From Nitrospinota bacterium (GTDB taxonomy: Bacteria > Nitrospinota_A > UBA7883): DNA of 33,933 bases. Within the stretch, counting starts at the first letter, position 1. Each line of letters begins with the position of its first letter. The notes beneath the pieces are model-generated. The model was not told the origin of the DNA. It worked only from the letters and a program-made list of their open reading frames with translations, and did not search any database. Made by a program: the position numbers and the translations under genes. The stretch spans positions 1 to 33,933 of the forward strand of contig JAOUMU010000024.1 of the NCBI GenBank assembly GCA_029881335.1, written 5' to 3'. Shown here piece by piece: positions 664-1,067 of this stretch.

Positions 664-786
664 AAAAACCCGTGGAGGAGAGGGGGGAAACCCCCACGGG
701 TTTCACTTTGCAATTCCTTGAGTTTCAGTTGGGGTAAGGAGGGGAAACTCAAAGCCTCGCAAATACTTGCATTCTGTCCTTACGTT
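661..786 (-). ncRNA. Predicted sigma54-dependent sRNA, copy A (about 125 nt)
   Basis: Minus strand: TGGCATA-N4-TTGCAT promoter, start predicted near 786, hairpin with C-rich loop (718-752), then terminator hairpin with T-tract (662-703). Similar in sequence and layout to copy B. Confidence 0.7.
662..703 (-). terminator. Rho-independent terminator of sRNA copy A
   Basis: Minus strand AAACCCGTGGGGGTTTCCCCCCTCTCCTCCACGGGTTTTTTT: stem CCCGTGG/CCACGGG followed by seven T. May also end the convergent small ORF at 448-663. Confidence 0.75.
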
Positions 787-795
787 TATACTTAG

Positions 796-813
796 ATGCA
801 ATGGCTATGCCAT
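796..813 (-). promoter_or_regulatory. Sigma54 (-24/-12) promoter of sRNA copy A
   Basis: Minus strand ATGGCATAGCCATTGCAT; GG and GC separated by 10 nt as in TGGCAYR-N4-TTGCW. Confidence 0.7.
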
Positions 814-874
814 CGCATATCTGTTTGTATTTCCAGATATTATCTTGTTTTGCCTCTGCAGTGTGTATGACTTT

Positions 875-909
875 GTCCGAATTGACTGACATTAATTGTA
901 TTTTTCGGA
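875..909 (-). promoter_or_regulatory. Candidate enhancer-binding site (UAS) for sRNA copy A
   Basis: Plus strand GTCCGAATTGACTGACATTAATTGTATTTTTCGGA, about 89-123 nt upstream of the predicted start. Blocks GTCCG, GACAT and ATTTnTC recur at nearly the same distances upstream of copy B. Confidence 0.45.
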
Positions 910-938
910 TATTTCTGCCCGACGTTGAGGCTGAGCCT

Positions 939-983
939 AAAATAAATAAAGCCCGTGGAAGAGAGAGGGCTCCTTCCACGGGC
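939..983 (-). terminator. Rho-independent terminator of sRNA copy B
   Basis: Minus strand GCCCGTGGAAG-GAGCCCTCTCT-CTTCCACGGGC (11-bp perfect stem) then TTTATTTATTTT. Confidence 0.75.
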
Positions 984-1067
984 TTCTAAATTGCAGCGCC
1001 TTGAGCTTTGATTGGGGGTAGGAGGGAAGCTCAAGACCCTACAAACTTTACTGCAATGCAACTTCAC
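940..1067 (-). ncRNA. Predicted sigma54-dependent sRNA, copy B (about 128 nt)
   Basis: Minus strand: TGGCACG-N4-TTGCAT promoter, start predicted near 1067, hairpin with C-rich loop (1001-1034), then terminator hairpin 951-983 with T-rich tail TTTATTTATTTT. Confidence 0.72.

Follow-up and report, generated by a model that had tools for sequence, protein, structure and literature searches.

The CcsR/Cuckoo RNAs of Rhodobacter and its relatives expose C-rich loops with an anti-Shine-Dalgarno (anti-SD) sequence, and the Qrr sRNAs of Vibrio are multicopy. In Listeria monocytogenes, loop A and the terminator loop of LhrC1-5 (RF00616) both bind the Shine-Dalgarno (SD) region of lapB, and Hfq is not required for binding to the lapB mRNA (PMC4132741). 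NfeR1/ar14 is an Hfq-independent sRNA of ~123 nt that carries anti-SD motifs in its hairpin loops and represses ntrB (PMC10746234). CcsR, at the CIN1 locus, is located downstream of a DUF1127 protein, with which it is co-transcribed from an RpoH promoter, and is processed by RNase E (PMC10253847). Among sigma-54-dependent sRNAs, Pxr of Myxococcus has tandem paralogues (PMC5568312), and glmY of the enterobacteria is activated by QseF at TGTCN10GACA-type sites (PMC8745638).

The window analysed here is a 33,933-nt stretch of a Nitrospinota genome. Its minus strand holds, at positions 661-1067, two tandem RNA elements that are predicted to be sRNA genes of ~125 nt each. Copy A (661..786, predicted transcript ~126 nt) and copy B (944..1067, ~124 nt), whose 5' starts were placed from promoter spacing, have the same layout: a ~20-nt 5' leader, a long hairpin whose C-rich loop measures 17-18 nt, a short linker rich in A, and a terminator unit, in which a T run follows a GC-rich hairpin that has a C/U-rich loop. 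Hairpin 1 spans 707..763 in copy A (stem 752-744/726-718, loop CCCUCCUUACCCCAACU at 743-727) and 991..1045 in copy B (stem 1034-1027/1008-1001, loop CCCUCCUACCCCCAAUCA at 1026-1009), the stems reaching further out to 763-707 and 1045-991, respectively. The intrinsic terminator hairpin of copy A (666..703) has a loop with CCCCCCUC and a T run after it, and that of copy B (949..985) has a C/U-rich loop and a broken T run. Both hairpins are part of the predicted minimum-free-energy structure of each copy, with fold z-scores of -4.4 for A and -5.9 for B, and none of 200 dinucleotide shuffles folded as well as either. An earlier note, made from the letters of the sequence, had proposed minus-strand hairpins at 718-1034 in two sibling sRNAs and a compensatory change in their stems. 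On re-reading, the positions, stems and loops that it gave were all exact, the change from U-A to C-G between copies A and B is genuine, and the two siblings were borne out, the hairpins being the first hairpins of complete sRNA genes. The sigma-54 promoters, upstream palindromes, third copy, order-wide distribution and convergent gene described below go beyond that note.

A DNA search of related genomes returned copies with the same layout in genomes of the same genus, the same family and the same order. Covariance models were then built, the first from 11 copies and the second from 16. At least one copy was found in each of the 12 genomes of the order, 16 copies in total, and the second model gave the same picture, with outlying copies scoring up to 60-75 bits. 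Copies A and B match at 97.0 and 106.1 bits. The window's genus (three genomes) is the richest in copies, and the window's genome has a third, copy C, on the minus strand of another contig (G000:C162:7748-7845). Copy C is divergent from a membrane-protein gene in both G000 and a second genome, G001, and in G000 an iron-sulphur oxidoreductase-like ORF lies downstream of it. The covariance model yielded no convincing members in the rest of the phylum (24 genomes) or in a sample of 392 genomes drawn mostly from outside it. A pattern scan of contigs placed the family only in Nitrospinota records and in a single record that bears the label Nitrospirae (HyVt-426, here G005). Nearly all other matches of the pattern scan fell short of 25 bits when scored with the model, and one in Streptomyces reached 30.5 bits. 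Weak matches in a genome from outside the phylum (G086, 33.9 bits) and in the sister family (G015, G016, G021 and G022) resemble ordinary terminators or repeats, have no sigma-54 promoters and were rejected. On these sequence comparisons, we consider it close to certain that a sigma-54-promoted, two-hairpin sRNA family exists.

To what extent the homologues covary was assessed at the level of helices and of single pairs. In the alignment of 16 copies, which was fitted to the structure, two-sided changes occur in 19 of 27 pairs and the proportion of paired cells is 95.8%, which falls to 29-50% (maximum 49.6%) when the partner is slid by 1-3 columns. An unfitted MAFFT alignment of 11 copies has two-sided changes in 12 pairs. 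Columns were also re-evolved independently on the family tree in 400 simulations, giving a tree-aware null. The covariation of helix 1 (7.6, compared to -2.9±1.4 simulated) and of helix 2 (5.2, compared to -1.3±1.0) was above all 400. When all column pairs of the 16 sequences were tested singly with a G statistic, in the manner of R-scape, none reached E<=0.05, a result that we attribute to the low power of so few sequences. The covariation proposed earlier is therefore significant for the helices, but not for individual pairs. The paired cells of the family include 57 G·U compared to 4 A·C, which assigns the structure to the minus strand. This bears on a reading in which the plus strand is the RNA and its loops, GGAGG/AGGAGGG, serve as a CsrB/RsmY-like sponge for CsrA. 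The plus-strand loops do contain GGA, and CsrA is present in 8/12 genomes of the order; however, CsrA was found neither in G006 nor in the window's genus, whose three genomes are the richest in copies, and the promoters and T runs are also on the minus strand. Together, the lack of detected CsrA in that genus and the strand evidence disfavour the sponge, which we regard as scarcely credible.

Upstream of copy A, a sigma-54 -24/-12 promoter (TGGCATAGCCATTGCA) at 797..812 on the minus strand fits 10/12 consensus positions, with 3/1000 shuffles as good. The corresponding promoter of copy B (TGGCACGCTCATTGCA), at 1078..1093 on the same strand, fits 12/12 positions, with 0/1000 shuffles as good. 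A GG-N10-GC sigma-54 element is found in 14/16 copies, 43-73 nt upstream of the model start; shuffles match the promoter score 0 to 7 times per 1000 in most copies and 26 times per 1000 in G007. Copies G002C and G006 have no recognisable -24/-12 element. In the window's genus, copy C combines a sigma-54-like element with a plausible overlapping sigma-70 promoter. RpoN is encoded in 12/12 genomes of the order and, with a promoter at the right distance in all but two copies, the family resembles a sigma-54-dependent sRNA class by sequence.

Further upstream on the minus strand, palindromes could be read directly from the sequence: TGTC-N10-GACA at 874..891 for copy A (TGTCAGTCAATTCGGACA) and TGTC-N9-GACC at 1156..1172 for copy B (TGTCCTGTAACCGGACC), the latter a candidate site for an enhancer-binding protein. 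The palindrome of copy A has the same form as the QseF site consensus, TGTCN10GACA (PMC8745638). GACA-N4-TGTC occurs upstream in 5/13 representative copies; in shuffled sequences, the commonest palindrome, whatever its form, reaches 2-3. In 1.3 Mb of the window's genome, such a palindrome accompanies just two further sigma-54-like sites between genes. On contig C9 (minus strand, ~8838-9128), a sigma-54 promoter (TGGCATGCGTATTGCA) with TGTCCTAATGGAAGGACA upstream precedes a hairpin whose stem is 17 bp long, ~920 nt before sucC; this is possibly a further non-coding RNA under the same regulator. On contig C15 (plus strand, ~19690-19930), a sigma-54-like site with TGTCTTGAATCAGGACA precedes a putative multihaem cytochrome gene, which may belong to the same regulon as the sRNAs.

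The 3' end of copy A overlaps a convergent gene on the plus strand (448..663) for a small membrane-protein-like product of 71 aa, which matched no Pfam family above the cut-off. A homologue of this gene is present in 11/12 genomes of the order, and in 10 it is convergent with and adjoins an sRNA copy; in some genomes, the homologues are near thiL-like genes. The gene may be functionally linked to the sRNA, or the two may merely have a terminator in common. In 10 genomes, the convergent gene has the terminator at its 3' end, which would also suit another reading, namely that the hairpins are only terminators or attenuators of the small-protein gene and that there is no separate RNA. Against this, the element has conserved sigma-54 promoters directed into it, and conservation extends past the terminator to hairpin 1 and its loop. 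The full architecture is moreover found in copies B and C and in the G008 copy, none of which has the convergent gene beside it, and the G-U bias and the T run are both on the minus strand. Terminators without an sRNA are thus a very unlikely explanation.

We then compared the composition of the loops with that of the rest of the RNA. Across the 16 copies, C makes up 54% of the hairpin-1 loops and 67% of the terminator loops, compared to 5% of the linker and 13% of the 5' leader. Every hairpin-1 loop has four or more consecutive C, and 12/16 have CCUCC. The terminator loops contain CCC in 16/16 copies and CCCC in 14/16; in background terminator-like hairpins of the window's genome, the loops are 29% C and only 1/33 has CCCC. 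CCUCC is kept in all copies of the window's genus, and the four distant copies without it keep a C-rich tract (including CGCCCCCCUAA, CCCUCUGCCCC and CCCCCUCUUGC). The 16S rRNA of the window's genome ends in ...GGAUCACCUCCUUUCUAAGG, so the hairpin-1 loops of its genus share CCUCCU(U)(U) with the 16S 3' end, which has CCUCCUU in common with loop A and CCUCCUUU in common with loop C. The earlier description of the terminator loops as C/U-rich thus extends to all 16 copies, and the loops stay C-rich while the linker and leader do not. Its description of the first loop as C-rich and anti-SD-like holds throughout for the C run, but not for strict CCUCC in the four distant copies. With an exposed, SD-complementary loop, the family has the character of the C-rich, anti-SD-loop class of sRNAs.

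We also looked for targets at start codons, as the earlier note had suggested. At positions -18..-7 of predicted genes, exact 7-mer complements of the hairpin-1 loops showed a 6-7-fold enrichment over coding sequence, and by the same measure the terminator loops reached 2.6-fold. The seeds with the best matches to start regions lie in the half of the hairpin-1 loop that contains CCCUCC. The 16S tail was likewise enriched 5.8-fold, so the loop 7-mer enrichment represents the generic SD signal; it is also partly circular, since SD strength helped our crude gene caller to pick start codons. Duplex energies calculated over 1.3 Mb of genome were no better in start regions than inside genes or for shuffled loops, and no specific mRNA targets emerged from this prediction. 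Start-codon enrichment was thus seen with loop 7-mers, at a level like that of the 16S tail, but not with duplex energies. These sequence matches show that the loops can pair with SD sequences, and the enrichment gives no sign of selected specific targets. A second reading of these data accepts the sRNA and has the C-rich loops pair mainly with G-rich stretches elsewhere (5' UTRs or other RNAs) or bind a protein, the SD likeness then being a by-product of C-richness. It would account for the distant copies that keep the C run and lose CCUCC, and for a target signal that does not go past the generic one. However, CCUCC is retained in three quarters of the loops, those of the window's genus among them, the best seeds come from the half that carries it, and the mechanistic relatives of the family act at SDs. 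We therefore consider pairing elsewhere to be a possible but rather unlikely main role.

Hfq was not detected by Pfam profile in any of the 12 genomes of the order, in a search in which positive controls matched. Pairing by these RNAs would thus be Hfq-independent unless another chaperone helps. We propose that copies A and B are tandem members of an undescribed family of trans-acting sRNAs which is switched by sigma-54 and blocks SD sequences with C-rich loops in the absence of Hfq, and we give this reading a probability of about 0.66. An enhancer-binding protein bound to the GACA/TGTC palindromes would turn on transcription at the sigma-54 promoters in vivo, producing a minus-strand transcript of ~125 nt that ends at its built-in intrinsic terminator. 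The transcript would display two C-rich loops, one in hairpin 1 (CCCUCC...CCCC in most copies) and one in the terminator (CCCCYC), which would seed pairing with G-rich stretches of mRNA, mainly SD regions. Such pairing would block ribosome binding with no need for Hfq. SD-directed repression is, in our view, the main and most likely mechanism, and a fairly probable one. More speculatively, and doubtfully, the three siblings might mimic the anti-SD tail of 16S rRNA and lower the translation of many SD-led mRNAs, forming an Hfq-free, sigma-54-controlled global damper that acts when one enhancer-binding protein fires. This could possibly be tied to electron-transport genes; the multihaem cytochrome gene and the second candidate non-coding RNA carry a similar promoter plus palindrome.

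A scan of the window at Rfam gathering thresholds gave no match. The best sub-threshold matches, on the correct strand, were to ar14 of the alphaproteobacteria (RF02344; 27.6 and 23.0 bits), LhrC (27.0 bits) and suhB/mmgR (19.7 bits), all of the same mechanistic kind, with C-rich or anti-SD loops. These matches could reflect a remote relationship by descent rather than a convergent likeness. However, the gathering scores (58.8, 110 and 41, respectively) are far above the matches, the phyla are distant, the 392 genomes sampled mainly outside the phylum contain no intermediates, and C-rich loops alone can yield such scores; common descent is accordingly highly improbable. From the Rfam result and the comparison with known sRNAs, the family is new by sequence and appears to work like a known kind.

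LhrC is the closest design: as here, it is multicopy and both loop A and the terminator loop carry C/U-rich sites. Unlike the Nitrospinota RNAs, which have sigma-54 promoters and an A-rich linker and come from a different phylum, LhrC is controlled by LisR and has a third site in a single-stranded linker. In ar14, three hairpins each carry an identical CCUCCUCCC and the promoter is of the sigma-70 type, whereas the present family has two hairpins with variable C tracts, no CCUCCUCCC and sigma-54 promoters. The CcsR/Cuckoo RNAs are similar in that sibling sRNAs lie beside a small-protein gene, but theirs is an array co-transcribed with DUF1127, and here the sRNAs have their own sigma-54 promoters and the neighbour is convergent and unmatched to DUF1127. 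Pxr, GlmY and Qrr are sigma-54-dependent like this family, yet no sequence relation to them was found, and in none of them has a C-rich hairpin loop been described together with a C-rich terminator loop, as seen here. The Nitrospinota family thus belongs to none of ar14, LhrC, CcsR/Cuckoo and Pxr. A full-text literature search on the phylum returned no relevant paper on regulatory RNA, and very little regulatory RNA has so far been described in Nitrospinota. Here, strand, ends, structure and promoter class are predictable from sequence for an sRNA family that spans a whole order of genomes with no detected Hfq. Beside LhrC and ar14, this is another apparently independent case of a two-loop, C-rich sRNA, and one in which sigma-54 control has been added to the design, making its activator and its targets directly testable.
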